The translations under genes were made by a program, and so were the position numbers. This document shows, piece by piece, positions 21,335 through 50,662 of a stretch of 64,000 nucleotides of DNA. The stretch's first letter is position 1. The number at the start of each line of letters is the position of its first letter. This stretch comes from Prostheceraeus crozeri (lineage: Eukaryota; Platyhelminthes; Polycladida; Euryleptidae). Under the pieces are notes generated by a model. That model searched no databases. It worked only from the letters and a program-made list of their open reading frames with translations, and was not told the DNA's origin. The stretch covers positions 248,001 to 312,000 of the forward strand of contig CAJQUW010004443.1 of assembly GCA_907163375.1 (NCBI GenBank), written 5' to 3'.

Positions 21335-21340
21335 GTGATG
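21335..21340. repeat. Target-site duplication GTGATG, left copy (outer Polinton)
   Basis: The six bases GTGATG immediately precede the AGTAGTTAATAATG end of the outer element and recur exactly at 61357-61362 just after its other end. Six-base duplications are diagnostic of Polinton integrase. Confidence 0.92.
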
Positions 21341-21680
21341 AGTAGTTAATAATGTGAACGCAAAAAGTGAGGATTTAAACGAGGATGCGAACACGGCGTT
21401 CCAAACATGTAAATATGAACATTTGAATTCGAACCGCGTTCCAATCATGTGAATAGGAACCACGTTCCGATTGGGATTTGAACTGAGTTCGGTACAATCA
21501 ATTGTGTACTGAGGTTGTAACAGCCTGTTCCGAGATTGAATTAAAGTGAGTGAATTAGAACAGGGATGCGAACATTTATTTCGGAACTTGAATAGATAGT
21601 TGTTTGTTTTGAGAATGCTTGCTCAAATGCGACAATTGTGACCATTGTGACTATGATGACAATTTTATTTATTTTCATAA
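21341..21680. repeat. Left terminal inverted repeat, outer Polinton
   Basis: About 340 bp matching the complement of 61003-61356 to the TTTTCATAA boundary. It lacks about 14 bases that the right copy has near the middle. It is rich in GTTCC/GGAAC words (for example GCGTTCC, GGAACCACGTTCC), which may be recognition sites for the integrase or the terminal protein of protein-primed replication; that role is inferred from the element class. Confidence 0.9.
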
Positions 21681-26884: not shown

Positions 26885-26942
26885 TGACGTCATAGAATGA
26901 TGAAAATATATAAGGACTATCAAAAATTATAATCCTCATCAT
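26885..26942 (+). promoter_or_regulatory. DNA polymerase promoter: CRE, TATA box, initiator
   Basis: A perfect palindromic CRE, TGACGTCA, lies at 26885-26892, TATATAAG at 26907-26914, and an initiator-like TCATCATT with its A at 26938, exactly 31 bases from the TATA start. The polymerase ATG follows at 26955. The compact layout implies a leader of about 17 bases and control by a host CREB/ATF-type bZIP factor. Confidence 0.7.
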
Positions 26943-26954
26943 TTACTATTAAGA

Positions 26955-29900
26955 ATGGTTGTCTGTTTCAAGTGTGGAAAATCTTTTACTCTTTATGGCA
27001 ATTTGCAACGTCATGAAAAATTTTGTAAGTTGGGGATAACATATAAGTGTAGCAAGTGTCCATATCAAACGAATAGGAAGGATAATCTAAAGCGACACAA
27101 TCTAGTTTGCAATTTAAGTTCAAATTCTCAAAATATGTCAGTTGTTAATCAAGTAGAATCACAAAATAATCACATATTCAGATCTAGCATTGTTGAGCCA
27201 ACGTCTAGACATACGTCAACCAGCGCTTCAAATAATACCTTTATGCAATGTTGCTCCCGTTGTGGTAAAAATTATAATTCTGTTAGCAAATTTCGTCAGC
27301 ATATGAATGTACATAATACAAAAAGTGAGATGAATATTCATAATAATCATGGAACTCTAAATCTCAGTGAAAGCGCACTTAATGGGCACGCTCGTGTATA
27401 TGACATCACACCATCAACACATACAATCGACATTAATTCTTTTTTATTGAGTATGCGACCTATATTAGGGAACTTAGTGTCAAACCTTCTAGAACAATTT
27501 CAACTACGTGGCCGTCAAATTGCACAAATTCGTTATGTGCGATCAGATCCTCAAGAAGATGAAACGTTTCTCGCACACTTTACATCATCATCTACAAACT
27601 ATATTTATGACTATGATACCTGGTTCCAAGATAATTTGAATAGTCTTTCAAGCCATATTGAAGCATTTGCAAATAAGGGTAGCAACTGGGTTATAGATGA
27701 AATACTTAATATTGAATTCAATGTTATTACCAGTCAACTACTATCCGGTGGACAAACATTTACTCTACCAAAGAGCTTAAAAGATTCTAAGGCTGTAATC
27801 AATGTACACTCGAATGTAAATGACTGCTTCAAGTATTCAGTTTTATCAATACTACATTATGATGAAGTACTTCACTCGAGGAATGAGATGAAATCATATA
27901 GCAAGTGGACATCAGATCTGAATATGGATGGCATTGCCACACCAGTATCAATAAAAGATATTTCTAGGTTTGAGAAAAATAATGACATCAAAATTAACAT
28001 TCACTTTTATGAAAAAGGACTCAAAGGTGTTCGTTATAGTAGCAACTTTATTGGTAAACGAACTGTCAATATACTTTTAATTGTTAACAATGAACGCGCA
28101 CATTATTGTGGAATCAGAAAGATATCGAGACTATATAGGAAAATTAATAAAAGATTTAAACATTACTGTGATCGATGCACCCAATCGTTTACATATAAGA
28201 CAACTCTAGACCGACATTATCAATTTTGTGTTCGAGGAAAAGCGCAAATAGAAAAAATGCCTAAACAACTACAGGTAAGTATAAGTAGCATGGAATATCA
28301 TCTAAGTCCACCTTTAGTAATTTATGCAGATATAGAGTGCTACATCGATAATAAAGTGCATAAACCTGCAGCAGTTGGAGTTTATCATGTTTGGCGCAAC
28401 GCTCTCCAATCAAAATTTGACAACGAATATTACGTCTTTAAAGGAGAAAATTGTATTACGAACTTCTTAAATCACCTAGAAAATGTAGCTCAAAATTTGT
28501 ATGACAATCAGCGTGCAATAAGTAGACAACCGATGTCTCTATCCCATGATGAAGAAGAAAAACACAAAAGCGCACAGAGTTGCAGTAAATGTAAATCTAA
28601 GTTCAGTGATGATTGTATCAAAGTGAGAGATCATGATCATATAACAGGAAAATATAGACAAACATTATGTAGCAAATGCAATCTTCGATTGAAACTGAAT
28701 AGGCGGAAACTGCCCATATTTTTCCACAACTTCAAGAATTATGACAGTCACATCGTTTGCTACAAAGCAATTGGAAAGAAGAAACCATGGAAATTAGAAG
28801 TGGTAGCAGCCACAGCTGAAAAATACATAACTTTATCCACTAGTGTACCTGTGAACGAGTACAATGGAAAAACAATATATTTTAAATTAAAGTTCTTGGA
28901 TTCTTTTCAATTTCTATGTGCATCACTAAGTGAATTAGCAAAAGGATTACAAGTGTATAAGCATGTAGAAAAATTAAGAAACGAATTTCAACTGATTAAT
29001 GATGACATCCTATATCAAAAGGGATTGTTTCCCTACTCATATTTTAAAAGTCTAAATACATTGTTGGAAAATAGTCTACCACCACAAGGTGAATTCTATA
29101 ATGATCTCACACGAGATCATTGCTCAGACAAAGAATATGAACACGGTTGTAATGCGTGGATTGCTTTCAGTTGCTCCAATTTTGGCGATTACATGCTTGC
29201 ATATCTCAAATTAGATGTGTTATTGCTGGCAGATATTTTTGAAGTCTTTAGATCATTGAGTCAAAATGAAGATGAGGTGGATCCTGTGAATTTTGTCAGC
29301 CTTCCACACCTTAGGTTTACTTCAGCTTTGATTTTCGCTTCATCTGATCCTCCACACTACATACAAGATGAAAACATGTACAATCTATTTGAAAGAGGAA
29401 TAAGAGGAGGTATGACATTTACAAATATTCATCGAGCACGTGCACGCATTACGGAATTACAAAATAATACAAATGAAAGCCGTCACTTATCCTACATAGA
29501 TGTCAACAACCTTTACGGCTCGTCACTCAGCAAGAGTCTACCACATTCAAATTTCAAATGGTTGAATGAAGATGAAATGGACTACTTTTCAAACGAAGTT
29601 AACATTCAAGCCATAGATGATGATAGTCAAATCGGGTATATTTTTGATTTAGATTTGGAATATCCTGCAAGCATACATGATGACACTGCCGATTTTCCAT
29701 TGGCGCCAGAAATGCAGATGATAGAACAAAAAATGTTTTCAAGTTATATGAAAGACTTGTATAAAAAAGTAAGACCAAATACTAACTTTTCTTCAACTAA
29801 GAAACTATTGTTACACCAATTTGATAGGGAAAATTATGTTATACACTATTCAATATTAAAATTTTATTTATTTATGGGCATGAAAGTCAAAAAAGTTCAT

Positions 29901-30841
29901 AGCGGTGTAAAGTTCACTCAAAAGCCCTGGTTAAGAACGTTCATTGACATGAATTCCCAAAAGAGAGCTCAGTCAAGAAGTGATTTTAAAAGTCATTTTA
30001 CAAGTTGAAGAATAACTCTTTATATGACAAGACAATGGAAAATGTAAGACGAAGGAGAAAATTCAGATTAGTTAATAGTGTTGAGCAATGTCAAAAATTA
30101 TCAAATCATCCACTCTATGTTCAGCATAAGATCTTTGATGAAGATCTAGTTGGCATGGAAATGTACAAGCCTTCAATGATGTTGAATAAATTAATTTATG
30201 TTGGTCAAGCAGTTCTTGATTGTAGCAAGTTGGAAATGTATCAACTATTTCATAATGATTTAAAAAGATGTCCACTGATAAATAGAACGCGACTTTGTGG
30301 CGGTGACACTGACAGTTTTTTCCTATGTTTATACACCTCACCTTCTATCCGTCTGGAGGACATACTTCTATATTTTGGTGAAAAATTTGACTCTTCAAAC
30401 TATGATGTACATCACCGACTATACTCAACTACAAACAGAGCTAGGTTGGGCTGTTTTAAGGAAGAGTGTGCGGGAAAGTTGCTTGAGGAAATGATCTTAT
30501 CAAAACCGAAAATGTATTCAATGAAATATCTAGATTCATCTTGCCACAGCATCAAACGTGCAAAAGGAGTGCAGAGAGCTGCAGTTAAAAAACTACAACA
30601 TAATGATTATAGGACCGTGTACTACAGTGAAATGGATACAAGTGAAGAAATGACAGTAATTAACTCGAAAAACCACTTAGTTACTACAAAATCATTTAGG
30701 AAGCGAGGACTTTCACTCTGGGAGGATAAGCGCTGTTGGTTAAATAAAAATTTGTCACTACCATATGGACACTACAGCTTGGGACTTCCCCCACCTTCAA
30801 AAAGAAGGAGAATCCTTCCTGCTATAGGTGATGTGGAATAA
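26955..30841 (+). pseudogene. PolB: Protein-primed DNA polymerase B of the outer Polinton, one frameshift
   Basis: Replicates the linear element genome from its ends. The first frame (26955-30008) has N-terminal C2H2 fingers (CFKCGKSFTLYGNLQRHEKF; CSRCGKNYNSVSKFRQH), a Cys/His-containing globular domain (DCFKYSVLSILH ... AHYCGI), exonuclease motifs (VIYADIECY; FHNFKNYDSH; LKLDVLLLADIF) with a zinc-binding KVRDHDHITGKYR insert between the first two, and the polymerase A motif SYIDVNNLYGSSL. It stops at 30008. The rest continues in another frame from 30005, with the B motif (NNSLYDKTMENVRRR, where a glycine usual in the family is aspartate) and the C motif CGGDTDSFF. One indel at about 30000 therefore splits an otherwise full-length enzyme of about 1,290 residues. 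Confidence 0.93.
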
Positions 30842-30912: not shown

Positions 30913-31047
30913 TTACTAATATATAGGTTGTCTAAACACAAAATGAAATTTCTACATTTTTCCGATGTGTAGAAATTATTACTAAAATATAGGTAGTCTT
31001 ATTATGAATTTAAGACATAGCACTCAACATCATTCCGATATGTTGAG
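30913..31047 (+). promoter_or_regulatory. Tandem box-plus-hairpin repeat, two units
   Basis: Each unit has a 21-base box, TTACTAAWATATAGGTWGTCT (30913-30933 and 30979-30999), followed by a hairpin. Hairpin 1 pairs AATTTCTACA (30947-30956) with TGTAGAAATT (30968-30977); hairpin 2 pairs CTCAACAT (31023-31030) with ATGTTGAG (31040-31047). The stems differ in sequence yet pair perfectly, and both loops keep TTCCGAT. This is what selection for structure would produce. It lies between the polymerase stop and the PC4-like start, so it could be a promoter/operator array, an mRNA 3'-end or leader element, or a replication or packaging signal. Confidence 0.6.
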
Positions 31048-31101
31048 ATGTGAAATAGCAAACTTTATGCAAACAGATGAATTAGGTTTATATTTGAAAA
31101 C

Positions 31102-31662
31102 ATGCCTCATTACACTAGAACATGGAAATTAAACGACTTACAAAGCGTTCACATAACAAATTCTAAGAAAGTAGTCTTTCGTCACTCAATAACAAATAGT
31201 GGTGGAAGACATCGTGGCGTTTGCATTAGCCTTCACGCATTATCTTCACTGAAAGACTTCGCTGATCTGATTGACAACCACAAGACTCGACTGAAGATTC
31301 CCCTCGATCAAAAGGTATGGATAAAGTGTGACTCTACCGTCAAGCTGTACGTCTGTTCACCAAAGAGGGAAGATGTTGACTATCGATTCTTCCGTTTCAG
31401 TGACGTCACATGGAGAAACTTTACAAAGGAGATACTACCACACATGATTTCATTCATTAAGGATGGAGGACATCAAGCGGATGGAAGTTGTGAATCGGAT
31501 GTTAACTTCAAAAGTAAACTCAAAACTCAATCTTCAAGAGATCGAGCGGTACATTCCGAACCGAAAGCAATGGTTATTAATAAAACACAAAATGAAGCCG
31601 ACAACGAACCTGCATCAGGGAAGACCCTCAATGTTAACATGGAGGATACAGAGGAAGGATAA
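31102..31662 (+). CDS. Possible PC4-like (transcription coactivator p15) protein
   Basis: A 186-residue frame. Residues about 22-60 (KKVVFRHSITNS, then RGVCISLHALSSLKDFADLI) and about 78-118 (VKLYVCSPKRED, then FRFSDVTWRNFTKEILPHM) each resemble the strand-turn-helix of PC4 domains, in which a KGISL-type strand leads into a W/L-rich helix. PC4 proteins bind single-stranded DNA and cooperate with TBP and TFIIB. The resemblance is weak and by eye only. The tail is polar and acidic. Its 3' end overlaps the TBP-like frame by about 200 bases, so either the genes truly overlap or one ancestral fusion has been frameshifted. Confidence 0.45.
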   Translation: MPHYTRTWKLNDLQSVHITNSKKVVFRHSITNSGGRHRGVCISLHALSSLKDFADLIDNHKTRLKIPLDQKVWIKCDSTVKLYVCSPKREDVDYRFFRFSDVTWRNFTKEILPHMISFIKDGGHQADGSCESDVNFKSKLKTQSSRDRAVHSEPKAMVINKTQNEADNEPASGKTLNVNMEDTEEG

Positions 31663-32032
31663 ATATGTGACTATCCTATTCTTTCCAAATGGAACAATCC
31701 AGTGTGTTGGTGGCTTCTCTGATGGTGATCTACCATATCTACATTCTAAGTTGGAAAATTTACTTAGAGACTCATTATCTAAATGGGAAGTGAAGACAAT
31801 GACTGTGCTATGTGAATTGAACTATCATTATGACTTTCGTAAAGTCACATCATCAAATAATCTCACTTATGAAGTGGAACTATTTCCAGCAGCACAGATG
31901 ACTAACTGGCACCCATATCATGTTCATGTATTCCATAATGGAAAGATTGTGATAACCGGCATTAAATACATAAATGATGTTCCTACCATCCTATGTGATT
32001 TGAGAAAAATATTTGTGAAATCTACATTGTAG
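31463..32032 (+). CDS. TATA-binding-protein-like protein
   Basis: A 189-residue frame whose C-terminal two thirds has the two-repeat layout of TBP. Repeat 1 contains KYVTILFFPNGTIQCVGGFS, comparable to the TBP strand ALIF-SGK-VCTGAKS. Repeat 2 contains YEVELFPAAQM, comparable to TBP's Y-PELFPGLIY, followed by VHVFHNGKIVITGIKYINDV, comparable to TBP's LLIFVSGK-VLTGAK. The order, spacing (about 85 residues between repeats) and final helix (LCDLRKIF) fit. TBP folds as a saddle that nucleates promoters; an element-encoded version could direct its TATATAAG promoters. The ATG at 31463 may not be the true start; later ATGs near 31591 and 31636 are also possible. Confidence 0.6.
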   Translation: MEDIKRMEVVNRMLTSKVNSKLNLQEIERYIPNRKQWLLIKHKMKPTTNLHQGRPSMLTWRIQRKDKYVTILFFPNGTIQCVGGFSDGDLPYLHSKLENLLRDSLSKWEVKTMTVLCELNYHYDFRKVTSSNNLTYEVELFPAAQMTNWHPYHVHVFHNGKIVITGIKYINDVPTILCDLRKIFVKSTL

Positions 32033-32189: not shown

Positions 32190-32203
32190 AATAAAACTTT
32201 ATT
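32190..32203. terminator. Bidirectional polyadenylation signal
   Basis: The 14 bases AATAAAACTTTATT contain AATAAA on the plus strand (32190-32195) and on the minus strand (32198-32203). They would end the rightward TBP-like transcript and the leftward protease/capsid transcript, which converge here; the minus-strand signal overlaps the protease stop codon. Such shared signals are typical of compact DNA virus genomes. Confidence 0.65.
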
Positions 32204-32663
32204 ACAAAACAGTTTCAATATACTTTGTAAGAATTACATCATTTTTATAGCAGTCTTTCGAAAAAAGTTGTAAAACACTTTTACAGTAATTTTTTAATGG
32301 TCTTTCGTTGACGAAATATAGCACATAACCGCCGCACATGAGAGATACATTGCTTTGGAGTGGAAACGATGTAACTTTCTTAATCGTCCAGGAGAACCTA
32401 TTCATCCATAGTGCAATGTCATTTAAGCGAGGTAGATTAAGAAAGTCAAAATATTCAGCCACTTTATAGCGATTGATGTACACTGCAACCCAATGTTTAC
32501 CAGGAAGATTGTTGCTGTCCATATTGATGATAAGCGAACAAGGATAGAAAGGAATTGAATTAGGTAAATTATCTCTAGAAAAGACATCAAGAAATATTGA
32601 CTTGGAGTAGGGATGAGCATTTCCCATTTTCCTCAAGATTTCGGTGTTGCTTAGGTTACTCAT
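32202..32663 (-). CDS. PRO: Adenovirus-type cysteine protease (adenain-like), outer Polinton
   Basis: A 153-residue maturation protease that would cleave capsid and core precursors. The catalytic histidine is in LPGKHWVAVYINR, an acidic/aromatic segment VAEYFDFLNLP follows at the usual distance, and the nucleophile cysteine is in SNVSLMCGGYVLYF; this H...D...C order and length match the Polinton/adenovirus family. No disruption seen. Its ATG overlaps the stop of the upstream capsid gene as ATGA, suggesting one transcript translated by reinitiation or coupled start. The plus-strand polyA signal pair lies at its end. Confidence 0.88.
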   Translation of the reverse strand: MSNLSNTEILRKMGNAHPYSKSIFLDVFSRDNLPNSIPFYPCSLIINMDSNNLPGKHWVAVYINRYKVAEYFDFLNLPRLNDIALWMNRFSWTIKKVTSFPLQSNVSLMCGGYVLYFVNERPLKNYCKSVLQLFSKDCYKNDVILTKYIETVL

Positions 32664-33942
32664 CTCTGATAGCTGACAGTTACGTCTCGCATTCTCGTTA
32701 TTTCAACTTTGCTATCATAGATAGCATAAATGAGGCAAGTAATTGTTTTCTTCAAAGGTGACTCAAATGACACCTCTAGTCGTAGATTACCAGGCTTTGT
32801 AACTCCTACGCTTTCACCGCCTAGATCTGCATCTGCTGTGAGATTGTATATAATGAAGAAGTAACCATTTTATACATATCCATTGTAATTCCATTTGAAT
32901 CATCTGTGTTAAACATGCTCAGTGCAGTGAAAGTAGAACCATATTGACGTGCAAATTTACCCTCTTTAAAATTAGGCTCATAAGCTTTGCAAGCAACAAA
33001 TTTTCCATCCTGATAGAGTGCTAGTTTACTAACGTTAAAGTGTTGGAAATTAAATGGATTATTTTCAAAAGCACCAATAAATGACTCATTTTCCACAAAT
33101 GTGATATACACCGCCTTCGGCATCGCAGTGGGAAAAAGATTTGGGTAGGCATGAGAGGATGATCCCGCACCAATTGTGAAGTTTGTTAACACACTGTGAT
33201 TAACTGGATATATTGCATTGCTTTTCCTCAATCCTGTCGCATGCTCGTAGATGACTGACGGGTTCATTGTTACTCTCCTTACATTGAGCACGGCACTACT
33301 TGTGTTGATTTGATAGTTTGTAGCTCCAAAAGCCATTAACGCGAACTCAGGATTTGCACGAATAAATTTTATTTGCATTTTAACCTGTGATAGTAGATAT
33401 CTAGATTGACGAAGGAAATCAAGATAGACAGGTCCTTTCAAGTATAATTCCTTTGAATCTGCTGTCAATTCCATTCGTTTTGTCAAACCTCCATTTGAAA
33501 CATCATCAAATTTCCCTTGCTGATCATCATACCAGCCGGCAACTTGCAAGTGTGACTGTTTAGCTTGCTTCTGAAATTGCGTCATTGTATTTATGTATGC
33601 TCCATAGGGATATGCTCGATCCCCTCCTTCAATCTGTTTGTCATTCAATATTAAATACACATCTGAGAATAGACTGGCAATAGGAAGATTTGTTAATCCC
33701 ACTTTATCCTTGGTTGAATCAATATTGGTACCATCAGTCTTCTTAATTTGTATACACAATTCTAAATCAATGGATTGACGGTCAATATAATCTTGAGGAT
33801 TAGCAGGTATATCAAACTGAATAGGCTGTTGGTTGCCATCGATATTTGTTGTGGGGAATATGTCTACAATAGTTGAGGAAATAATGTCAGTTTGATGAGG
33901 CGGTGAATCAAAGAAACACAAAGCTGAATTGATACTCTGCAT
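32660..33942 (-). pseudogene. Capsid protein of the F54H12.2-like family (major capsid candidate), frameshifted near its end
   Basis: The main frame (32821-33942, 373 residues) matches a protein family widespread in invertebrate Polintons and known from Caenorhabditis F54H12.2. Landmarks are IQFDIPANPQDYIDRQSIDL, SLFSDVYLILNDKQIEGG, YPYGAYINTM and LLSQVKMQIKFIRANPEFAL. The family's closing segment appears in the next frame: YNLTADADLG, GNLRLEVSFESPL and ITCLIYAIYDSKVEI, ending at 32660. So a single indel near 32850 cuts off the last 55 or so residues. The family is predicted to form jelly-roll capsomers; I assign it as the main shell protein from context, since no other large capsid gene is present in this element. 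Confidence 0.75.
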
Positions 33943-33952
33943 CGTATTAGCT

Positions 33953-34435
33953 TTACAAATATGTTGTTTTCCTTCGTTTTGACTTGTTTCCAGTCGCTGT
34001 GGAATTTCGTTTGCGCTTTCTTGCTTTCACACGACGTCTTGATTTAGAACGTGCTGCTCTGGTGGGCTTTTTACTTTTCCTACGCCTTTGCTTAGTAACT
34101 CGACCTGATCCAACTTGTCTTGACTTCCTACGTTTCTTCCGAACTGTACGCCTCGTCTTTGTTAAATCATCTAATGCGTCTATGGCAGACTGCTGTGGAC
34201 GCAATTTCATGGATTCACCGATATTCTCCCCTTGAAGTGCATCAGCTGCAACATTTGCACCAATGTCTAAAGCTCTGTTTCCAACCCGCTTCATGAATGG
34301 TACGCCATACTTTTTGAGTGTTGGGAGAACCATACGTCTTAGTGCACCGAATATGCCTCCTCCAACTTGTCGTCTACCTCCAGCAAACACGGGATAGCCG
34401 CTCTGATAGGATGGACCACTGTAAATGCCTGACAT
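33953..34435 (-). CDS. Basic core/minor virion protein (adenovirus pX/pVII-like)
   Basis: A 160-residue protein. The N terminus has a glycine-rich start (SGIYSGPSYQSGYPVFAGGR) and a hydrophobic/amphipathic segment (GIFGALRRMVLPTLKKYGVP). After residue 95 it is almost wholly Arg/Lys/Ser (for example RKKRRKSRQVGSGRVTKQRR), ending with several nuclear-localisation-like clusters. This combination is the hallmark of the DNA-condensing core proteins of adenoviruses and of Polinton/adintovirus relatives. It lies 10 bp upstream of the capsid gene and appears intact. The plus-strand frame over it is a shadow. Confidence 0.8.
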   Translation of the reverse strand: MSGIYSGPSYQSGYPVFAGGRRQVGGGIFGALRRMVLPTLKKYGVPFMKRVGNRALDIGANVAADALQGENIGESMKLRPQQSAIDALDDLTKTRRTVRKKRRKSRQVGSGRVTKQRRRKSKKPTRAARSKSRRRVKARKRKRNSTATGNKSKRRKTTYL

Positions 34436-34478: not shown

Positions 34479-35297
34479 TTAATCTCGTGTCCTGATGTGT
34501 AGTGTTAAAACAGTAACAACACCACAGAATGGTACTACTTCACCAGTGTCATCATGAATTGATATGTCAATTCTATTGATGACATTTCTGCTCATTGGTA
34601 CATACATTGTGTTAATAAATTCTCGATTGATTAGTTGCTTCCTCACGGATGAGAGCGGAAATGTGCGCAAAAGTGGGGCTTCAATGTCACCAACCCTTGT
34701 ATATTCAATGATGTTACAATAGACGTACAAGTTGCTTATATCCCGCTCTAATGATGGTGTTGTATCGCCTGTTGATGTACCTTCATAAATAGTTGATTTT
34801 GAGAATCCCAATGTGGTCGTTAACACGCTATCCAGCTTGATAAGAGAGTTCTTTCCTACCTTTAGAATCATGCGTTTCTTATGTGGGTCATAAGAAAAGT
34901 GATATTCATCTGCATCAAGGTAATCTACACCAAACTCATTTAACTTTGTGCACAATTCATATGGCGTTTTCAAGCTTTCAATGTTTAAATTAACTCTTTT
35001 TACCAGTTCACTAGAAGTAGTCAATTCATCACCCACAATGTCTTCGCTGTATACGTGGATATCCCATGAAACGTTTGTTGATGCTTTGAGTTTAGAAGAG
35101 GATAAATGAACCTTGTATGTATCATTTAATTCTGTCAGCAAAGGTGCGCTTTCAAGGCCTTTAAACATCCCAAACATTTCAGATCCGAATTCAATAACAG
35201 CGGACTTAGACCTTTCCAATGGTGTCTTTTTACTAAAAACAAGAAATTCTACCTCCGTTTCAACAGTAAATAAAGATACTCTCTTTCTTATATTCAC
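34479..35297 (-). CDS. Penton-like minor capsid protein, C-terminal part
   Basis: A 272-residue frame matching the conserved partner of F54H12.2-type capsid genes. Signature segments: DADEYHFSYDPHKKRMILKV, then TTTLGFSKSTIYEG, then NLYVYCNIIEYTRVGDIEAP followed by LLRTFPL, then YVPMSRNVINRIDISIHDDT and a short terminal beta strand. It is taken to form the vertex or minor capsomer. The inner element's 50724-51467 protein is the counterpart. The frame begins at a non-ATG codon and overlaps the end of the upstream minus-strand frame by 38 bp, so the two were probably one longer gene now separated by a frameshift at about 35280. Confidence 0.7.
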   Translation of the reverse strand: MNIRKRVSLFTVETEVEFLVFSKKTPLERSKSAVIEFGSEMFGMFKGLESAPLLTELNDTYKVHLSSSKLKASTNVSWDIHVYSEDIVGDELTTSSELVKRVNLNIESLKTPYELCTKLNEFGVDYLDADEYHFSYDPHKKRMILKVGKNSLIKLDSVLTTTLGFSKSTIYEGTSTGDTTPSLERDISNLYVYCNIIEYTRVGDIEAPLLRTFPLSSVRKQLINREFINTMYVPMSRNVINRIDISIHDDTGEVVPFCGVVTVLTLHIRTRD

Positions 35298-35688: not shown

Positions 35689-36255
35689 AGTAATGTACAT
35701 AAGACCGTTCCAGGACAGGCCAAAATTCTCAATTTTTTGCACCTTTCAAAAACGACTAAATTTATCAATTTAGGTCTTAAAACTTGAAAAAATGACATAA
35801 ATTTAAGAATTTTGGTCATTTTTAAATGAATATAAAATTCTCAAATTTTGCACTTTTTAACACGTCTAAATTCATAAATTTAGGCGTTTTTAAAAATACT
35901 GAATTTTTCAAATTTTTCATAATCTTAAAATTTGAGAAATACAATTTTTACTCTTAAAATCATGACCGTTCCAGGACACCGAAAATCATAAAAGTCAAGA
36001 ATCTCAAATTTGAGATTATGACATTTTACTCCCAAAATCATGACCGTTCCAGGACACCGAAAAAATCATAAAAGTTACGAAACTCAAATTTGAGATTATG
36101 ACATTTTACTCCCAAAATCATGACCGTTCCAGGACACCGAAAATCATAAAAATTGGTATTTTTAAAAACGTCTTTTAAATCCATTTTTCAGGTTTTAAAA
36201 TATCAGATAACTAAAATTATGTGTCTAAAAATATTTCTTTAAAAATGGAAGAAAC
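35689..36255. repeat. Left terminal inverted repeat, inner Polinton, with internal subrepeats
   Basis: About 567 bp complementary to 53077-53671, ending at ATGGAAGAAAC inside a coding start. Inside are three tandem copies of a 78-80-bp unit starting near 35949, 36026 and 36106, each with AATCATGACCGTTCCAGGAC. The same GACCGTTCCAGGAC also lies at the very tip (35704). The reiteration suggests integrase or terminal-protein binding sites. The right copy has fewer units, so unit number varies. Confidence 0.9.
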
Positions 36256-36412
36256 AAAAGTGGAAGAAACCGCTAGAATATATCCTTCGTTATCTCAATT
36301 AAAAACAAGTGAAATGGATCTATTATTATTAAGATTAGAGCATTATGATAAATTAATAAGACGCAATTATTACTTAGACATTCTTCGTCATTGTATTCTC
36401 AACATTATTTAA
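36246..36412 (+). CDS. Short gene starting in the left terminal repeat; truncated paralogue of the gene at 52395-53088
   Basis: A 55-residue frame from the ATG at 36246. It reads MEETKVEETARIYPSLSQLK then LLLLRLEHYDKL. The right-end gene starts MEETPRMYLSLSQLK and later has LLVRLEH followed by DKL, so they are homologues reading inward from the two ends. Both share the promoter-proximal sequence in the repeats. After the common part this copy diverges and stops, lacking the hydrophobic and C-terminal helical parts of its partner; it is probably a truncated duplicate. Confidence 0.5.
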
Positions 36413-37091
36413 AGTACTAATTGTGTGAACTAGAAGATCATTGTAACTCATAAACTCAAAATTATTCAATGAACCCGTACATTGGCTGATAATTGAAGAG
36501 ACAGAGATTGAAGAGCAGCTTTCCCCATAAAATTATCGTGGAATCTCTTGTCATTTCAATTTACCCATCGATAAACTTTTGACATTTCAATTTACGCGTG
36601 CGTAAAAGTTTTGACATTTCAACTTACCCCTACGTAAATTATTTTCAGTATGTTTTCAAAATCCATTTAAAAAAAATCTGTTCTCAAAGTCAGTTTTAGA
36701 AATCCATTTGCAAAATTCATTTAACGTTTGCCAAACACATACGGGTAGTAAAGTACTTCCCATTGTGAAGACATGAATAGATTAAGCACATAAGAGTGCA
36801 TTGACAATTAAGCAATTCTTCTTGTGAACTCAGAACGCATAAACGCTGATATGCGGGTTAGTTGTTATGGCAATTTTAAACAATCATTTTAACGATGAAA
36901 CATATTAACAAATGAAGTTCATGAAGAAAATGGAAATATGTAAAAATATATAGATTAGAATAATTATAATATAATCTTTTCAAAATCGAAAAAGTAGTAA
37001 GGAAAGTCATCATTATGGGACAGTTGTAGATCAATACCCCCACCCCCTTCTGACTTTTAGGGGTCCCTATAATAAATTTTTTTATTATAAA
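36413..37091. other. Non-coding A/T-rich interval with a threefold motif
   Basis: Between 36549 and 36640 the string TGACATTTCAATTTAC (first copy TGTCATTTCAATTTAC, third copy AACTTAC) occurs three times about 36 bp apart, each followed by a CGTAAA-like or CGATAAA word. No gene seen. It could hold the promoter of the protease gene that starts at 37092. Confidence 0.5.
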
Positions 37092-37575
37092 ATGAGCAAC
37101 ATAAATGAGTTTTTAAAATTATATGGAACACAAACAACTACAAACTTTGATCTAAAGAATATTGCTAATCAATTGGGAATAGAGAATTTTCACTTATTGA
37201 TGAGAGACGAATTACAATTCCTAAAAAATATGCCAACAGGAACCTTCAGTTTCCAACTATAAATTTCATAACAAATCTTCATACGTCAGATGAAAAAGGA
37301 GTACATTGGTCAGCGGGACAAAGAAATATAAACAGAGATAATTGTTATTTTGACCACCCTGAGGCTGAGAACTAATATTTTGACTCTTATGGACTTCCAC
37401 CTACAAATGAAGTTAAAAACTTGGCAATGGAACTTATAATACATTTCAAATTCAAAAACCGGGAACTACTTATTGTGGTCAATTATGTCTTTATGTTTTA
37501 TTTAAATTACAAAAAGGAGTACCATTTCTTGATATTATGTTAGAATTGAATAATAATAATAATAATGATAATTAA
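37092..37575 (+). pseudogene. PRO: Adenovirus-type cysteine protease, inner Polinton, frameshifted
   Basis: No single long frame remains, but three frames in order give the family landmarks. The start is MSNINEFLKLYGT; the histidine motif is TSDEKGVHWSAGQ; the aspartate region is YFDSYGLPPTNEVKN; the cysteine motif is TYCGQLCLYVLFKLQ, ending in an asparagine run at 37575. Spacing matches a roughly 160-residue Polinton protease. At least two frameshifts and a stop have killed it. It converges tail to tail with the integrase gene, which ends 18 bp further on. Confidence 0.75.
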
Positions 37576-37592
37576 AAATCAAGCGAAGCTAG

Positions 37593-38894
37593 CTAAAGCT
37601 CACTTCGTTGTAATTCATTTTGATAAAATCGGCCTCTGATATCTTCATCATCTAAATCTTTGATTTCGTAAGTTTGATAAGTTTGATTTATTTTACAAAC
37701 TTCAAATATTTCTTTAGTCCAATAGCCAACGAAGCCTTTTTCAAATTTATTCTTATACTTAAATATTCTAACTCTATCTCCAATTTTAAATTTCGGCTTA
37801 TGTTTCTGTAAATTCGGATTACTCTCATTCGAATAATTATTTTCGAATATTTTCTTTCCGATTAAATCAGGGTCGTCAGAAGCATTCTTTGGGGTTTCTT
37901 CAATACCTGAATGAACTTTATTATTGTACTGCTCTACAATTCCTGGTAATATCTTCAACCATTTCTGATTTCTTTGCTCAGTAAATTTCTTGAATAATTT
38001 ACTTTTTAACGTCCGATTGAATCTTTCTATCACTACGGCCTTCCCTGCATTTTCAGTTGAATAAACAGTTTCAAATAGTGGCTGAACGTTTCGGTTATAA
38101 AATTCCGACCCTTTATCAACAAACAATTTCTTTGGCTTTCTATTAGTTTCTTTAAAGATTTCTTCAAACGCATATTTAACTGATAGACCACTTTTGTTTT
38201 TTAAAGGCTTTACCCAAGCATATCGTGTATATAAATCTATAACGGTCAATGCGTATTTGTGGTCCCTTTCATTCGGCATATGAATAAGATCAGCACACCA
38301 AATATCATCTTTATTAAATACTTCTACTTTCAATAGATATTTCGGCTTTCTGTATTCTTTATGAATTTTGGACGCGTAGGTTCGAGCGTTGCTCTCAGAC
38401 AGCTTTGCTGTCGTTTCAGAGTTATGAGTTTTTTCTAAACCCTGACCGAATAATATTTTTGCTTGTAAAGCTTTCTTAACAAACATTCTTTCAATTCTTT
38501 CTCTAAATGTAGGATTCTGAATACTATCTAATTCTTGAATCATCTTCTTATCAGCTGCATGACGAGATTTTAGGTCACGATTTCGATAAGCTATATCATG
38601 TCTGAAAGCTGCGACATCTACTCTATTTATTGGTTCTTCACCTGGTTTCGGATTATTATTCTCATCTAGTCTTATATCTAATCGAGTTCCTGGACCGGTA
38701 TATGAATGACCAGGAAGATTTTTTTCTTTCGAATATTTACTACAAATAAATCCAGGAAAGTTTTCTAATGTTTTTTGTATGTCACCTCCAATATGCTGAC
38801 AATTTGAGGTTTTCTGTACTTTTTAGAGATAATTCAATAAATCTAAATTAGCAATTTTTAATTTAATTAAATTTTCGGAATTTGTAGAATTCAT
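37593..38894 (-). pseudogene. INT: Phospholipase A2 domain fused to retrovirus-like integrase
   Basis: One reading frame runs from the ATG at 38894 to 37593 (about 433 codons), broken only by a TAA at 38823-38825. Next is a parvovirus-type phospholipase A2 domain: LPGHSYTGPGTRLD (calcium loop), then VDVAAFRHDIAYRNRD (His-Asp catalytic pair), then RHAADKKMIQEL and the basic tail KKALQAKILFGQG. This module helps virions cross membranes in parvoviruses. It is followed without a stop by the integrase: NKDDIWCADLIHMPNERDHK, LTVIDLYTRYAW, FVDKGSEFYN, and AVVIERFNRTLKSKLFKKF, a D,D-35-E core. The C terminus is KIGDRVRIFKYKNKF-type. No zinc-binding N domain is seen. A polyprotein cut by the protease, or an indel fusing two genes, would both explain this. 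Confidence 0.8.
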
Positions 38895-38916
38895 TTTAAA
38901 AGATAAAATAAATGTT

Positions 38917-39399
38917 TTACCTTATCATACTAGGACTTAGATATATTCCAGAACCATCTTTAGTTTCTTTAATTTCAATTAAATCATCAACATTGTGGAG
39001 AATATTTTTAAGAACTCGTTTTCCTTCATCAACTAAATTTAATTTACTAATAAAATTATCTACTATTACTTCACCCCTAGCAACTTTCTCTAACTCCCTA
39101 TTATGACGTTTTTGTTCTTCTAATGCTGCCTTCTCTGATTTATTTTTATTTACTGCTTGGACAATACCAGCTGTCCCACCTGCAACACTTCCTGCTGCTG
39201 CTATGCCTCCTATTATCAGTGGAATTAATGGGAGAATCCCGCCATTCTTTTCTTCTTTTAATTGAATATTCTCTATCATTGGTTTTCTTATGTAATACTT
39301 TTTTTTGTTAATCGTGATAGTTTTAGGGGTATTTTTGTCAACAATATTACGTAATTTTAATTCAAAAGTTTTATTATTATTACTTTTCGCTTCCGACAT
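38917..39399 (-). CDS. Membrane-active minor virion protein
   Basis: A 160-residue protein with a hydrophobic, glycine/alanine-rich central stretch at about 55-82 (GGILPLIPLIIGGIAAAGSV), then a charged helix (EKAALEEQKRHNRELEK) and the C-terminal motif GSGIYLSP. Cnidarian and arthropod Polintons carry proteins of this make-up close to the capsid and integrase genes; it recalls adenovirus membrane-lytic or cement proteins, but I cannot align it to a named family. Apparently intact. It lies just upstream of the PLA2-integrase gene in the same orientation. Confidence 0.65.
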   Translation of the reverse strand: MSEAKSNNNKTFELKLRNIVDKNTPKTITINKKKYYIRKPMIENIQLKEEKNGGILPLIPLIIGGIAAAGSVAGGTAGIVQAVNKNKSEKAALEEQKRHNRELEKVARGEVIVDNFISKLNLVDEGKRVLKNILHNVDDLIEIKETKDGSGIYLSPSMIR

Positions 39400-39525
39400 T
39401 TTTAATAAAAAAATTTTGAGTTTGGAAAAAATTTTAATCTAAGAATTTTTTTAATCTATTCTAGTTATGAAAAAATTTTAAGTTAGGAAGTATTTAATCT
39501 ATTCTAGTTATGAAAACATTTTAAG

Positions 39526-40764
39526 TTACCTAGCCATCTTTCCATTAAGAATTTCAATAAAATATTTTACATCTTCTAGCAATAAACCATAAGCCATCAA
39601 TGAAGTTGAGGAATCTTTCTTTTCAATATTAATTGTTACATCACAACCAGTCTTGATAATATCTTCAGATTGTGCACTTAAATCGAAACAGAAAACAGGA
39701 TATAAATGTCTCCAATCTCCAGGAGTTAATTGTGGTTCAACTCCAAATTCTATACAAAGATTTCGATAAGAATCATATCCTTCCATAAATTGATTATTGG
39801 TATCATCGAATCTTAATGGATCAATTGGATATCGAGTTTGATTTAATGAAACTTGTAAACTTCGAATTGCATCAATATGAAAAAGATTATTGTTCTTATC
39901 AAAACTTGGAGAATTATTTCTTTGAAAAGTTAGTAATAAATATCTTGGAGTATTCGCAGTTCTAGTAAAATGCCAGTTAAATCTTTGTTCGAAAAAGTTA
40001 CTGAACTAGCAGTTCTCTTTAGAAAATTAACTGGAATTGGTTTGTTAGTATTTAATCTTTTAGCAATAGCTGTTTCAACCTCTAAACTAGGAGTAATATG
40101 CTTAATCCACCATTCAAGTCTATCAATTTTTAAATATGCTTTTTTTCCAGTCTTGCCAAAAAAGATTAATTCATTATTTGCTGTGCGATGAATTATTAAT
40201 TTAAATTTTAATTGATATGATATTTTATCATAATCTAAATAACCGAATAATGGAGACAATGACCAATTTACAGTCTGTTTACTTTTCTTATTAAACTCAC
40301 GTCTTTCTTTATATGCACTATTGTTTGTTTTATTTAAATGTTTTGCAATATTTTCTACATCTTTCGCAATTCCTGCTGCATCTGTTCCAGCGTGAGTTAA
40401 ATCATCAACAATTATACCATCATTAGTATCAGGAAACCAACCTTCGATTTCATGCTTTTTATTATTTTCACCAATTGTTACAAATCTAAGCATTGAATCA
40501 ATTACACCTGGAGAATCACTTATTGTTTCTATATCTTGAGTTGCAACATCTAAACGCATTTGTGTAAATAATTTTGGAAAAAAAATTATTCTCTAATGCA
40601 ATATTATCGGTTTCTGGTAATGGTGTTGTAAAATTGGCATCACTATATAAAGAATATTCACAGTGTAAAAATGAATCAGGTAGATATATATAACTTTGTT
40701 GATTATCAACTTCAAAAATTAAATCACCTCCAGTATTTACTCTACTAGAAGATCCGGGATTCAT
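39526..40764 (-). pseudogene. MCP: Major capsid protein (double jelly-roll type), inner Polinton, two frameshifts
   Basis: Three frames in order make a capsid protein of about 410 residues. Frame 1 (40516-40764): NTGGDLIFEVDNQQSYIYLP. Frame 2 (39930-40559): DSMLRFVTIGENNKKHEIEG, WFPDTNDG and LSPLFGYLDYDKISYQLKFK. Frame 3 extends from an untracked part (PRYLLLTFQRNN, then LQVSLNQTRYPIDPLRF) into 39526-39786 (GDWRHLYPVFCFDLSAQ). These are landmarks of the Polinton shell protein best known from Hydra-type elements. The frameshifts fall near 40530 and 39945. It is unrelated by eye to the outer element's capsid gene, which shows that the two viruses differ. Confidence 0.8.
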
Positions 40765-41096
40765 AGCAATTCTTATATAGTCATTCTTTTTTGATTGTAA
40801 CCGACGAACGGAGGATCGTCTAATCTAAATTTATTTTCGATAAGAGAAGATATTTTTATAAAAAATAATTTGACTTTTTGTTTTTTTCTCACAAAAAAAA
40901 TTTTACTAAAATATCATTTTAGAATTTTACCAAAAAATTTTACTAAAAAAATTTACTAAAATATATTTTTAGAATTTTGCTATACCAGCTCCGCTGTTCA
41001 CACAATTGCCTCTGATTTCTTCAATTGTTTTTTCATTATTTTTATTTTCATTGTATTTACTATCAGACCCTACAGCTATGTTAGCAATTTTGTTTT
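40765..41096. other. Non-coding A/T-rich spacer
   Basis: Contains a repeated AAATTTTACTAAAA-type string (40895-40975) and no frame with protein character. It separates the capsid gene from the minor-protein cluster and may carry the capsid promoter on the minus strand. Confidence 0.4.
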
Positions 41097-41654
41097 TTAT
41101 TTCCTCTGAAATTTTGCTAGACCAGCTCCGCTACAGCTTTGCTGGTTAAACCGAAGGTTGCTGCTCACGCCATTGCCTCTTATTTCTTCAACTGAACGAA
41201 CCGTAGGTTCAATTGAACGTTCTATGGCTACGCCTGTTTTCTTCCCCTTTTTACTATCAGACGGAGCTCCGCTCCTCAAGGTTTCCCCCACAGCTATGTT
41301 ACCAATTTTGTTTTTCGTTTCCTCTGAAAGTTTTTTTAATTTTTTTAGTTCTTCAGAATCATTCTTAAGTTTACGAATAGCTTCTAGTTGTTTTAATTCG
41401 TTTTGTGACTTGACAGCATTTGATATTGCACTAGCTGTACTACCTATAGCAGCCGCTCCTTTTGCAGATGTAATCAAATCTTTATTATTTTTAATTAAGT
41501 TAACGATACTTCCAATACCAGAAAAGATGCCAGCCCCTTCTTTTTGAATTGTTTCTACACTGTCATAATGGTAAACAGATTTCATAAATGGTTCATGTGC
41601 TATTTTTTGATTTGAAGCAAAATGTTTAAGATTGTGTTTATAAATTATAGGCAT
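41097..41654 (-). CDS. Minor virion protein with amphipathic segment
   Basis: A 185-residue protein. A glycine-containing hydrophobic segment at about 40-80 (EGAGIFSGIGSIVNLIKNNK, then AKGAAAIGSTASAIS) is followed by a charged coiled coil (QLEAIRKLKNDSEELKKLKK). It resembles the small membrane-interacting virion proteins of Polintons and adenoviruses in layout but not clearly in sequence. Its start overlaps the preceding coiled-coil gene by 17 bp, showing tight packing. The C-terminal 70 residues overlap low-complexity GC-richer DNA with repeated GCTCCGCT words and may be partly extended by a frameshift. Confidence 0.55.
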   Translation of the reverse strand: MPIIYKHNLKHFASNQKIAHEPFMKSVYHYDSVETIQKEGAGIFSGIGSIVNLIKNNKDLITSAKGAAAIGSTASAISNAVKSQNELKQLEAIRKLKNDSEELKKLKKLSEETKNKIGNIAVGETLRSGAPSDSKKGKKTGVAIERSIEPTVRSVEEIRGNGVSSNLRFNQQSCSGAGLAKFQRK

Positions 41655-42165
41655 TTTTTAGGAATAAATTTGACTTTTGGGAAATAGATTTCAGTTCAGA
41701 TTTACGTGTGTGAATGTCCAACAACTTCGTGATAACTTTATTAATTTTCCGTTGTACGTTATCTATTGCGTCAAGCAGTGTGTGATGTACTTTAATTTCT
41801 TTTTCAGTCACTTCTAATTTCTTCTCACTTTTCTTTAATTCTGTTTTTAAAGCATTCAATTGAACTTTAAGAAAATCTAATTGTTTTTTAACAGCATCTA
41901 ACTGTTCTTTATTTTCTTTAGAGTTTTCTTGTAAATTTTTCTTTAATTCATTTTCTAAATTGATTTTAAGAGTTTTCATTTTTTTAACTTTTTGATTAAG
42001 TGCTTTTACTTCAATTATTAAATGATTTATTTTTTTAATTTGTTGAGCAATTTTAGAACTTAATTCATCAACACTTCTTTGGAATGTAGATTGTAACTGT
42101 CTTAAATTTTTTAAAATTCTTTCAGGTAGTTTTTCTATTTCATCTTCTAATTGTTCTTTTAACAT
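41638..42165 (-). CDS. Coiled-coil protein
   Basis: A 175-residue protein that is nearly all heptad repeat (for example INHLIIEVKALNQKVKKMK and FLKVQLNALKTELKKSEKKL), rich in Lys, Leu and Glu, with no globular domain or membrane segment. It lies between the fibre-like gene and the minor virion protein in one leftward cluster, so it may be a structural rod, scaffold or tether. No named family recognised. Appears intact. Confidence 0.6.
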   Translation of the reverse strand: MLKEQLEDEIEKLPERILKNLRQLQSTFQRSVDELSSKIAQQIKKINHLIIEVKALNQKVKKMKTLKINLENELKKNLQENSKENKEQLDAVKKQLDFLKVQLNALKTELKKSEKKLEVTEKEIKVHHTLLDAIDNVQRKINKVITKLLDIHTRKSELKSISQKSNLFLKNAYNL

Positions 42166-42177
42166 TTTTATCTGATG

Positions 42178-42582
42178 TTAATTTTTAATGACTGCAGATT
42201 TTAAATTTATAGAAAGCAATATTAAAATTTTTGATTGTTCAGAAATTTTTTTAAAAAGTTTTGCTATTTCTTTTTCTAGCTCTCTATCCTTTTTATCAAG
42301 TTTTAATAATTTTTCGTTTAATGATTTGTCATTAAGTTTAAGCAACTTTAATTCATTCATCAGTGGAACCAAAACATCGATTATATATTTTTCTTTTAAG
42401 TCATTGATTTGTGTATCAACATATTGTTTATTTGTTAACTCTGTATTTTGTTGCGGAAGAATAGAAAGATGCAATGGACCAGATAAAACGTCTCCAGTTT
42501 TCATAATATAATTTTCTATTTCTATTTCTGATTCACGATTATTCGGGATATATGCACCTCCACCAACATTTGGTAACATCAT
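42178..42582 (-). CDS. Fibre-like protein with phage tail-fibre-type repeat
   Basis: A 134-residue protein. Residues about 27-58 read MKTGDVLSGPLHLSILPQQN then TELTNKQYVDTQI, which is the trimeric-fibre motif (G-LSG-L-----P--...LTNKQYVD) common in phage tail fibres and in some cnidarian Polinton fibre proteins. The rest is a coiled coil, LNDKSLNEKLLKLDKKDREL. It is the first gene of the leftward structural cluster. A role as vertex spike or attachment fibre is inferred; it has no obvious receptor-binding head, so it may be truncated or work with the neighbouring coiled-coil protein. Confidence 0.55.
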   Translation of the reverse strand: MMLPNVGGGAYIPNNRESEIEIENYIMKTGDVLSGPLHLSILPQQNTELTNKQYVDTQINDLKEKYIIDVLVPLMNELKLLKLNDKSLNEKLLKLDKKDRELEKEIAKLFKKISEQSKILILLSINLKSAVIKN

Positions 42583-42677
42583 TTTTTAAACAATAAAAAT
42601 AAAAAAAAATTCTTTTCTAATATAAAATAAAATTTTTTCTTAAATAAAATAAATTTTTTTCTAATAAAAATAAAAAA

Positions 42678-43585
42678 ATGGAAATGACTCAAATTTGTCA
42701 AGTTTGCAAAATGCGTTTTTTATATCAAACGCTATTATATTCTCATATGAAAAATACACCGTGTGGTATGCATACTAAAAATATATCTATGAGTAATACT
42801 CCTATGAGAAATATATCTATGAGTAATACTCCTATGAGAAATATATCTATGAGAAATACTCCTATGAATCAATTTCAAAATAATAATAATATTCAACCAG
42901 TACAAAAATTAAAACATTTATTTATTTCAGATCAAGAACAAAATCTTTATACTGCTAGAAAAAATAATAAAATAAATAATAATATAAATAATACTGTAGC
43001 ACAAAATAATTATGTTGAAAATAATAATAATAAAAATCAATTTATAGAATGTAATAACAAAAAAATATGTTCTGGATGTAATAAAAATATAACATCTAAA
43101 AATTTTCCACGTCATTTAAAATTATGTGAACAACCAGAAGAAGTTAAAAAAGAAAAAAAAGATAAAATGAAAGATCAGCTATGCCGTAATTGTAATAAAT
43201 ATTTTACAAGTCAAGGAATTACTAATCATTATAATTCATGTATAAATTCTACAAGACAATGTACAAATTGTCAAATTATTAAATCTAAGTCAGGGTTTTA
43301 TGATAGTAAATATCAGTGTAAGGATTGTTTAAAAGAAAAAGTAAAATGTAGAGGTTGTCAAAAAATTATATTAAAGAAAGACTATATTTGGAAGATTTAT
43401 ATTCACCGGTTATAATTTAAAGTAATAAAAGTAATCTAAGTCGTCATAAATCTATTAATGTAATAAATGAATTGTTGGATAATTATATGAATAACACTGA
43501 GTTTCAAGATACATTAACTCCTCGAGATTTAAATTTAAACAATAATATATATAATAATAAATATTTAGAAACACCACCAAAATAA
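42678..43585 (+). pseudogene. Multi-zinc-finger protein with a tandem NISMSNTPMR repeat, one frameshift
   Basis: The main frame (42678-43415, 245 residues) has a C2H2-like finger (CQVCKMRFLYQTLLYSHMK), then three 30-bp DNA repeats coding NISMSNTPMR (42778-42870), an Asn-rich linker, then fingers CSGCNKNITSKNFPRHLKLC, CRNCNKYFTSQGITNHYNSC and a CxxC-rich CTNCQ...CKDC...CRGC tail. The protein continues in another frame (SNLSRHKSINVINELL) to a stop at 43585. It lies at the head of the rightward gene block, like the finger region at the start of the polymerase. Likely DNA-binding regulator; family unnamed. Confidence 0.6.
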
Positions 43586-43635
43586 TTTTTTCCCTAATTT
43601 ATCTAAAAAAAACCACAATCAGATCTTACACGTCT

Positions 43636-44871: not shown

Positions 44872-45043
44872 TTTTACAGTTTATATTTATAATATTTTTA
44901 TATTTTTTTATTTTTTTAAATAAAAAAAATATTTTACTAAAAATTATTTTACTGAAAATTATTTATAAAAAACTATTTATAAAAAATTATTAATAAAAAA
45001 ATAAAACACAAATTCTTTCTTTAAAAAACAAAAAAATAAAAAA

Positions 45044-45229: not shown

Positions 45230-45233
45230 AAAA

Positions 45234-45470: not shown

Positions 45471-45486
45471 AATATTTAATAAATCT

Positions 45487-49738: not shown

Positions 49739-49815
49739 AATAGTTAAATTTAATAAAGTAATATAAAAATATAAAATAATATAAAATAATATATTATAAA
49801 AATATAATATAAAAA

Positions 49816-50623: not shown

Positions 50624-50662
50624 TTTTTATCTATAATATTTATTTAAATTTTTTAGTTAAAA

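Follow-up and report, generated by a model that had tools for sequence, protein, structure and literature searches.

The TBP-like proteins of herpesviruses (EBV BcRF1, KSHV/MHV68 ORF24 and HCMV UL87) are reported to work with host RNA polymerase II (Pol II) and to replace TBP at late promoters (PMC4893493, PMC7498053), with a preference for TATT (PMC4893493), and the TBP-like domain, which was found by fold threading, lies inside a large protein that has its own Pol II-binding domain (PMC7498053). Other work mentions TBP-like proteins in giant viruses (PMC4893493), TBP in 59% of mirusvirus genomes versus 0% of Nucleocytoviricota for that gene cluster (PMC10132985), and the sporadic carriage of TBP by mirusvirus-linked algal elements that lack genes for DNA polymerase and for a double-jelly-roll capsid (PMC10675990). 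Here we describe a TBP homologue in a Polinton of the polyclad flatworm Prostheceraeus crozeri, where its gene overlaps that of a probable PC4-like protein. The analysis covered a stretch of 64,000 nucleotides (contig CAJQUW010004443.1, positions 248,001 to 312,000; hereafter the window).

The Polinton protein resembles those of herpesviruses as a TBP of a DNA virus that is proposed to act with host Pol II, and a changed promoter preference is possible; it differs from them as a bare core of 173-189 aa with a plain Pfam match and a gene that overlaps a PC4-like gene. Mirusviruses and giant viruses, compared by description only, are likewise eukaryotic double-stranded DNA viruses that encode a TBP, but they are far larger. 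To our knowledge, Polintons have been thought to depend wholly on host transcription factors. We propose, with a probability of roughly 0.62, that the protein is the virus-type TBP of an animal Polinton lineage and would nucleate host Pol II on the promoters of the element.

The original prediction, made from the letters of the window, held that no TBP was known from Polintons. Our search agrees with it: in a mostly open-access literature, with the founding paper on adintoviruses outside its coverage, no report of TBP or PC4 in Polintons, Mavericks or adintoviruses was found. One paper mentions Polintons and TBP in unrelated places (PMC7786948), and the main text of another contains no TATA, TBP, PC4 or transcription (PMC10120064). 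The presence of the TBP and PC4-like pair in Polintons is likely, not certainly, new. The two frames were found at the coordinates given earlier and overlap by 200 nt:

31102..31662, + strand: 186 aa, putative PC4-like protein with one unit near residues 8-52 and another near 66-118
31463..32032, + strand: TBP homologue, 189 aa, two TBP repeats

As judged from its sequence, the product of 31463-32032 is a true TBP homologue, and we regard this identity as established. It matched Pfam PF00352 at 53.9 bits (cut-off 22.9; E=1.6e-14) in two stretches, which bears out the earlier reading of two TBP-type repeats in order. The same family was matched by all 19 rows of the family alignment A3, window included, and 16 TBP homologues were present in the protein collection. 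A profile search against solved structures returned 35 sequences at E<=0.01 (best 2.7e-9), all named TBP or TBP fusion except one, the ECU04_1440 protein. The search with the single sequence was weaker, with TBPs from 1.1e-4 interspersed with designed proteins and caspase-1. Because Pfam, the profile search, the homologues and the 19 of 19 alignment rows agree, the match is not a chance motif. Viral contigs searched with TBP, TBP profiles, capsid and polB yielded no confirmed relatives, and a search of phage records gave nothing useful.

Intact relatives from three further Polinton families of the host genome (E, F and G, introduced below) scored 83.1 bits (1.2e-23), 66.7 bits (1.7e-18) and 76.2 bits (1.8e-21) with Pfam TBP, in two stretches each, and repeat 1 of family G was complete, being matched at profile positions 2-84 of 85. 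It follows by alignment to family G that repeat 1 is also complete in the window TBP, with an insertion of about 14 residues. When the window protein and its homologue P0002 alone were compared with cellular TBPs, the first half of repeat 1 aligned weakly (11 of 12 comparisons had at least 13 of 1000 shuffles as good, and one had none); the alignment became clear via families E-G.

The host genome searched (2.05 Gb) contained at least 150 copies of the TBP gene, and 149 of the 150 listed had no inner stop, each spanning residues 1-188 or 1-189. Each of four genome searches for TBP-bearing Polintons gave at least 150 matches; because many copies are near identical, a recent burst of these elements is indicated. 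The first 18 loci read fell into subfamilies A (that of the window), B, C and D, and the ratio of nonsynonymous to synonymous substitution (dN/dS) was counted between subfamilies for eight pairs of representatives. For TBP codons 68-189 the ratio was 0.08-0.34 in seven pairs; the A-B pair gave 1.12 on two synonymous changes alone. In the part where the two genes overlap, all eight pairs gave 0.07-0.23 in the TBP frame, 0.9-2.7 in the PC4-like frame and 0.7-1.5 in the third frame. Purifying selection acts on the TBP gene from the first codon onward, overlap included. The copies had been chosen by TBP score, which biases the openness of the TBP frame and affects the substitution ratios less.

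Because the overlap ratio is low in the TBP frame alone, the start of TBP lies at 31463 and the constraint in the overlap acts on its first 66 codons, and the tail of the PC4-like protein seems to be carried along. A start at codon 57, where 7 of the 16 homologues are listed as starting (8 of 16 start later, and P0002 is full length), had also been considered; it was rejected on the selection data and the full-length P0002. The PC4-like codons 1-120 gave dN/dS of 0.16-0.35 in all eight pairs, which marks this frame too as real and under selection; at its fixed offset the PC4-like frame was interrupted in 6 of the 18 copies (L004, L005, L007, L014, L016 and L018).

The host genome has its own TBP, matched in two separate pieces of one contig and, when these are joined, 86% identical to human TBP; it also has a TLF-like gene. 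TLF is not known outside animals, and the gene points to an animal host. The viral TBPs were 18-26% identical to three eukaryotic TBPs, 19-23% to archaeal TBP and 21-26% to the TBP of the host. In a maximum-likelihood tree of 15 sequences they stood apart from the cellular and archaeal TBPs, with an ultrafast bootstrap of 100 for the split and 1.9 substitutions per site along the dividing branch; families E-G adjoined the cellular branch, and long branches restrict any further reading of the tree. The very many near-identical copies in the host genome would fit a host TBP fragment recently captured or domesticated and without function for the element. Recent capture was rejected on the low identity to a host TBP that is itself so close to the human protein, the well-supported split with its long branch, and the sharing of the gene with families E-G; with dN/dS far under 1 in seven of eight pairs, this explanation is hardly credible.

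A Pfam TBP search of the host genome gave at least 150 matches; among the matches listed, four were pieces of the host TBP and TLF genes, and nine others were read in context. These nine belong to further Polinton families, namely E (L065, L066), F (L067, L068, L073), G (L070-L072) and H (L069). By tblastn they were 27-32% identical to the window element in TBP (29-33% in alignment A5), 38-44% in capsid, 38-55% in PolB and 53-58% in integrase near full length (32-63% in pieces). The original prediction had proposed a search for the same gene pair in related Polintons, and the pair was recovered: a PC4-like frame lies just upstream of TBP and overlaps it in the phase seen in the window in L066, L067, L068 (partly), L070, L072 and L073. 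In L071 the PC4-like and TBP parts are fused in one frame of 292 aa; in L065 the frame upstream of TBP is broken, and in L069 no PC4-like frame was recognized upstream of TBP. The PC4-like profile was significant in family G only (1.2e-6 to 8.8e-7, best frames), and the assignment in families E and F rests on position, phase and pattern. Among the 16 PC4-like rows, counting that of the window, 14 end in a peptide able to encode, in the frame of TBP, the stretch MLTWR..TILFF (0 of 100 shuffles each); the other two, P0030 (133 aa) and P0031 (102 aa), are short. Read across these families, the pairing of TBP with a PC4-like gene is conserved far beyond the window element, and we take it as established. 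In L072 of family G, the PC4-like gene occurs twice in tandem, at 3288-4001 and 2954-3328 in reverse-complement coordinates.

The protein of 31102-31662 is probably PC4-like, as indicated by its alignment to a PC4 profile built from human PC4 and MoSub1. With 16 rows, the shuffles at or above the score numbered 47 of 200 for the whole protein and 13 of 200 for each unit. With 22 rows, including families E-G, unit 1 aligned end to end over 48 columns and no shuffle of 200 reached its score, compared with 1 of 200 for the whole protein and 18 of 200 for unit 2. Two PC4-like units had been predicted; the first thus stood, in the wider alignment only, and the second did not. A DNA-binding or regulatory protein unrelated to PC4 is a less favoured but quite possible identity for this frame. 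It would explain why no significant Pfam, PDB or PHROG match was found, so that profile searches of both frames, as had been suggested, yielded a family for TBP only; PF02229 gave no match at E<=10 in 8 members of the PC4-like alignment, and hhalign of the single sequence to PC4 covered 17 columns. It would also accord with the failure of both units in the narrower alignment and of unit 2 in the wider one, with hhalign probabilities (22 rows) of just 16% for unit 1, 4.6% for the whole and 0.9% for unit 2, and with the absence of mutual similarity between the units (111 of 200 shuffles at or above). The end-to-end alignment of unit 1 argues for PC4, and the PC4-like identity is preferred. Compared with PC4/Sub1, the Polinton protein has two units, overlaps the next gene and has no family-level match.

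The word TATATAAG occurs 10 times in the window versus 3.74 expected, a count that none of 100 shuffles reached. Five sites lie in the outer Polinton, one in an inner Polinton nested in it, and four in the host flanks. The following promoter features were recognized in the outer element:

26885..26914, + strand: polB promoter, with TGACGTCA at 26885 and TATATAAG at 26907, 48 nt upstream of the polB ATG
59223..59230, - strand: TATATAAG, leftward promoter, conserved in A and C
60411..60418, - strand: TATATAAG preceding the leftward gene 59744-60355; kept in A, B and C, where TGAGTCAT lies upstream and 4 of 5 rows also have ATTGG
31401..31428, + strand: intragenic promoter-like stretch for TBP inside the PC4-like frame, with TGACGTCA at 31401 and TACAAAG at 31422
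30947..30977, no strand: first of two inverted repeats upstream of the PC4-like gene, TTCCGAT in the loop, near-invariant in nine copies of four subfamilies
31023..31047, no strand: second inverted repeat, TTCCGAT in the loop, imperfect in subfamily D
31064..31073, + strand: TTTATGCAAA, upstream of the PC4-like gene, a candidate core element of the second promoter class

Repeated TATATAAG promoters had been predicted, and three of the outer sites (polB, 60411 and 59223) are established as conserved between subfamilies at promoter positions. The aligned copies numbered 5 of 8 at polB, 5 of 8 at 60411 (one over 28 nt only) and 2 of 8 at 59223; the polB site is exact in subfamilies A, C and D, and B has TATATATATAG. 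The site at 32147 fell away: as a promoter of TBP it was rejected, since it sits between two convergent gene ends and drives neither. Near the conserved promoters we found TGACGT(CA), TGAGTCAT or TGA(C/G)TCAT, which are CRE/AP-1-like, and the CCAAT-like ATTGG. The CRE/AP-1 words number 10 in 24 kb of host flank versus 9 in 22 kb of outer element; because they are equally common in the flank, it is position and conservation that give them meaning.

The TBP gene probably has an intragenic promoter inside the PC4-like frame. TATAAAG or TATAAAAG lies 41-46 nt upstream of the TBP ATG in D, E, F and G (with one extra A in L065), and the coding context of this TATA differs, being Phe-Ile-Lys in D and Tyr-Lys-Arg in E-G. 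Among 36 rows of subfamilies A-D (two repeat a place), two D rows have TATAAAG, 31 have TACAAAG, TACAAAA or TACAAGG, and three have other words; TGACGTCA stands about 21 nt upstream in 35 of the 36. We consider the evidence from the intragenic TATA suggestive. Leaky scanning to the TBP start is unlikely because five ATGs lie between the PC4-like and TBP starts.

The two inverted repeats have TTCCGAT loops in common, and their stems are different yet complementary. They were not found upstream in the five E-G loci checked, and Rfam had no family for them, with one sub-threshold match elsewhere in the window. They may be hairpins in RNA or a site for a protein. PC4-type proteins bind single-stranded DNA, and here the TBP-like and PC4-like genes adjoin polB with conserved inverted repeats just upstream, an arrangement that would suit a pair that bends and coats the element DNA for replication, packaging or integration and not for transcription. 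The TFIIB-contact sequence Y-E-x-E-L-F-P ranks among the best-kept stretches of the viral TBPs and would be needless for architecture alone, and we consider such a role improbable.

A role of the viral TBP in transcription is in better agreement with the residues kept. Viral and cellular TBPs were aligned in yeast numbering, with 10 viral sequences, seven of which cover positions 69, 71 and 99, and the roles of the DNA- and TFIIB-contact residues were taken as known for cellular TBP. F116, F190, F207, E186, P191 and T215 are kept in 10 of 10 viral TBPs, residue 188 is Glu in nine and Asp in one, and N69 is kept in the seven that cover it. By alignment, the viral proteins stay close to cellular TBP in the carboxy-terminal repeat and in the TFIIB stirrup and depart from it in the amino-terminal repeat, the one facing the other half of the TATA box. 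Cellular TBP and the Polinton TBPs are both of the two-repeat family, as is TLF/TRF2, and have F116, F190, F207, E186 and E188 in common.

In the mechanism we propose, host activators and host TBP would open the promoters with CRE/AP-1 sites and TATA (polB, TBP and the rightmost genes). The viral TBP would accumulate next and would start transcription of the element together with TFIIB and Pol II of the host, perhaps joined by the PC4-like partner and possibly with a preference for a second promoter class. The host polymerase is assumed because no RNA polymerase or TFIIB match was found among the 20 outer-element frames scanned with Pfam. The protein is expected to fold as a saddle and to kink AT-rich promoter DNA chiefly via its well-kept carboxy-terminal repeat, with the kept stirrup Y-E-x-E/D-L-F-P holding host TFIIB. 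TFIID, TFIIA, NC2 and Mot1 use helix 2 of repeat 1 or the amino-terminal stirrup on cellular TBP, and the viral TBP would act without these surfaces. The PC4-like protein may serve as a single-stranded-DNA or coactivator partner. We infer the fold, the binding to DNA and TFIIB, the recruitment of polymerase and the timing.

Several observations weigh against this mechanism. Aromatic positions that intercalate DNA had been expected, and the alignment indicates three of the four kinking Phe; the fourth, F99, is Pro in all seven viral TBPs that cover it. V122 is Gln and T124 is V, I, L or M in 10 of 10, V71 is Met or Leu in 7 of 7, L205 is His or Ala in 10 of 10, and L114 is Gln in families E, F and G; N159 and V161 are lost (to Thr/Ser and Thr) in seven family A-type TBPs and kept in E-G. 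Because these DNA-contact positions are lost, canonical TATA binding may be weak, and recognition could be changed rather than canonical. Two pairs of kinking Phe are a hallmark of canonical TATA binding rather than of membership in the TBP family. At the intragenic promoter, the TATA of the TBP gene is degraded to TACAA(A/G)(A/G) in 31 of 34 rows of subfamilies A-C, L073 has TATAAATG in its place, and the synonymous-codon null for each intragenic TATA is just 0.09-0.19. The conserved TATATAAG promoters, with their CRE/AP-1-like sites, could be read by host factors alone. The original prediction, that the element brings its own promoter-recognition factor, remains the best reading, qualified by seemingly host-readable promoters and altered amino-terminal contacts.

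The same pattern, TFIIB-side residues kept and amino-terminal DNA contacts degraded, fits a partial, dominant-negative TBP, which would act as a decoy for host shutoff by occupying TFIIB or TATA boxes without productive initiation and so lowering host transcription or defence. Three DNA-kinking Phe, T215 and N69 are nevertheless kept, and TATA promoters and a second gene, whose product may bind DNA, are inherited together with the TBP; a decoy is accordingly quite improbable, and nucleation of Pol II on element promoters is preferred.

A further candidate signal is a GCAA element. The sequence CTTTA[TG]GCAA upstream of the PC4-like gene was kept in 9 of 9 aligned A-D copies, and some frames without TATA have GCAA 25-55 nt upstream of the ATG, where AGCAA is the top 5-mer (10 of 41 versus 1.8; 0 of 200 Markov shuffles). 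In the first count, any NNNGCAAN was present in 12 of 41 frames at -55..-25, 6 of 41 at -85..-55 and 2 of 41 at -110..-80; in the inner element the same intervals gave 0, 0 and 1 of 12. The ten-letter form is T-Y-T-A-W-G-C-A-A-A. Since the element was discovered in the very data on which it was counted, and the ten letters were read by eye, it is a lead only. In a held-out count on L075 and L076, none of 8 frames had it, and one TCATGCAAT at -33 was cut off at the edge of the span scanned; these pieces lie outside recognizable Polinton genes, and 14 Polinton proteins had no match in them. When three upstream regions were compared between A and C, that of the ATPase kept TTCTAAGCAAA at 71% overall identity, one was too similar to judge (95%), and one was without the GCAA element.

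These data would permit a two-class programme, in which host TBP reads the TATA(T/A)AAG class (polB, TBP and the rightmost leftward genes) and viral TBP reads T-Y-T-A-W-G-C-A-A-A 30-50 nt before the ATG of structural or late-type genes, the T-A-reading contacts of its amino-terminal repeat having been exchanged (F99P, V122Q and T124V/L) so as to tolerate a G-C step. We consider it unlikely; if true, a 22-kb integrating element would have independently invented the TATT late switch of herpesviruses. With the Polinton TBP as a factor for Pol II, its presence across deeply diverged families would show that virus-like elements of about 22 kb can carry a general transcription factor. It would also offer a very small viral TBP for study, would reveal which surfaces of TBP the recruitment of Pol II can do without, and would be a marker gene for a Polinton lineage with a testable promoter code.

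The Polinton context proposed earlier was borne out by the terminal inverted repeats (TIRs), the target-site duplication (TSD) and the integrase. The outer Polinton spans 21341-61356, or 22,033 bases once the inner one is subtracted, and its TIRs (340 and 354 nt) match in two blocks at 98-99%. Its features are as follows:

21335..21340 (left) and 61357-61362 (right), no strand: target-site duplication GTGATG, 6 bp
21341..21680, no strand: left TIR, starting AGTAGTTAAT, pairs with 61003-61356
61003..61356, no strand: right TIR
26955..30841, + strand: polB in two frames, 26955-30008 and 30005-30841; a frameshift breaks polB of the window copy
32202..32663, - strand: cysteine protease; the family E relative matches Peptidase_C48
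32821..33942, - strand: probable major capsid protein, 38-44% identical to the gene at the same position in families E, G and H
33953..34435, - strand: basic protein, no family match
34479..35297, - strand: probable minor capsid protein, by position alone; 24-36% identical to other families
35689..53671, no strand: second Polinton, AT-rich, inserted into the first, TSD CATTGT
55883..56851, - strand: integrase, rve core E=5e-14
57972..58280, - strand: start of a probable packaging ATPase, P-loop GPSQSGKTT, weak AAA matches

With Polintons, Mavericks and adintoviruses the outer element has in common the TIRs, the 6-bp TSD, the rve integrase, a protein-primed PolB and, probably, an adenain/Ulp1-type protease and the ATPase start. 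PolB was recognized by motifs read by eye in two frames and by similarity to family F polB; the pieces are 38-55% identical to family F polB and to one piece of L071, and the outer polB frames themselves had no Pfam polymerase match. The family F polB pieces also align with the polB of the inner element, which has its own Pfam DNA_pol_B_2 match. Pfam gave nothing for the probable major capsid gene, whose label comes from position and conservation; the basic protein we presume to be akin to adenovirus core or minor proteins. The frames 22284-22742, 26069-26644 and 60498-60971 had no Pfam match at E<=1, and some of them may be chance frames.

Among 615 open stretches of the window searched with profiles, one matched TBP and one the PC4-like protein, both in the outer element, and none matched within 35689..53671. 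The inner Polinton has a TIR, a 6-bp TSD, PolB, an integrase and a weak match of the double-jelly-roll (DJR) type, and it splits a gene. A DDE_3 transposase frame at 54194-54772 (E=5.7e-9) and a neighbouring frame lie inside the outer Polinton, and 54194-54921 is probably a Tc1/mariner-type insertion. A large imperfect foldback at 19701-20535, with arms of 137-156 nt at 96%, adjoins the left side of the Polinton in the host flank and resembles a foldback transposon.

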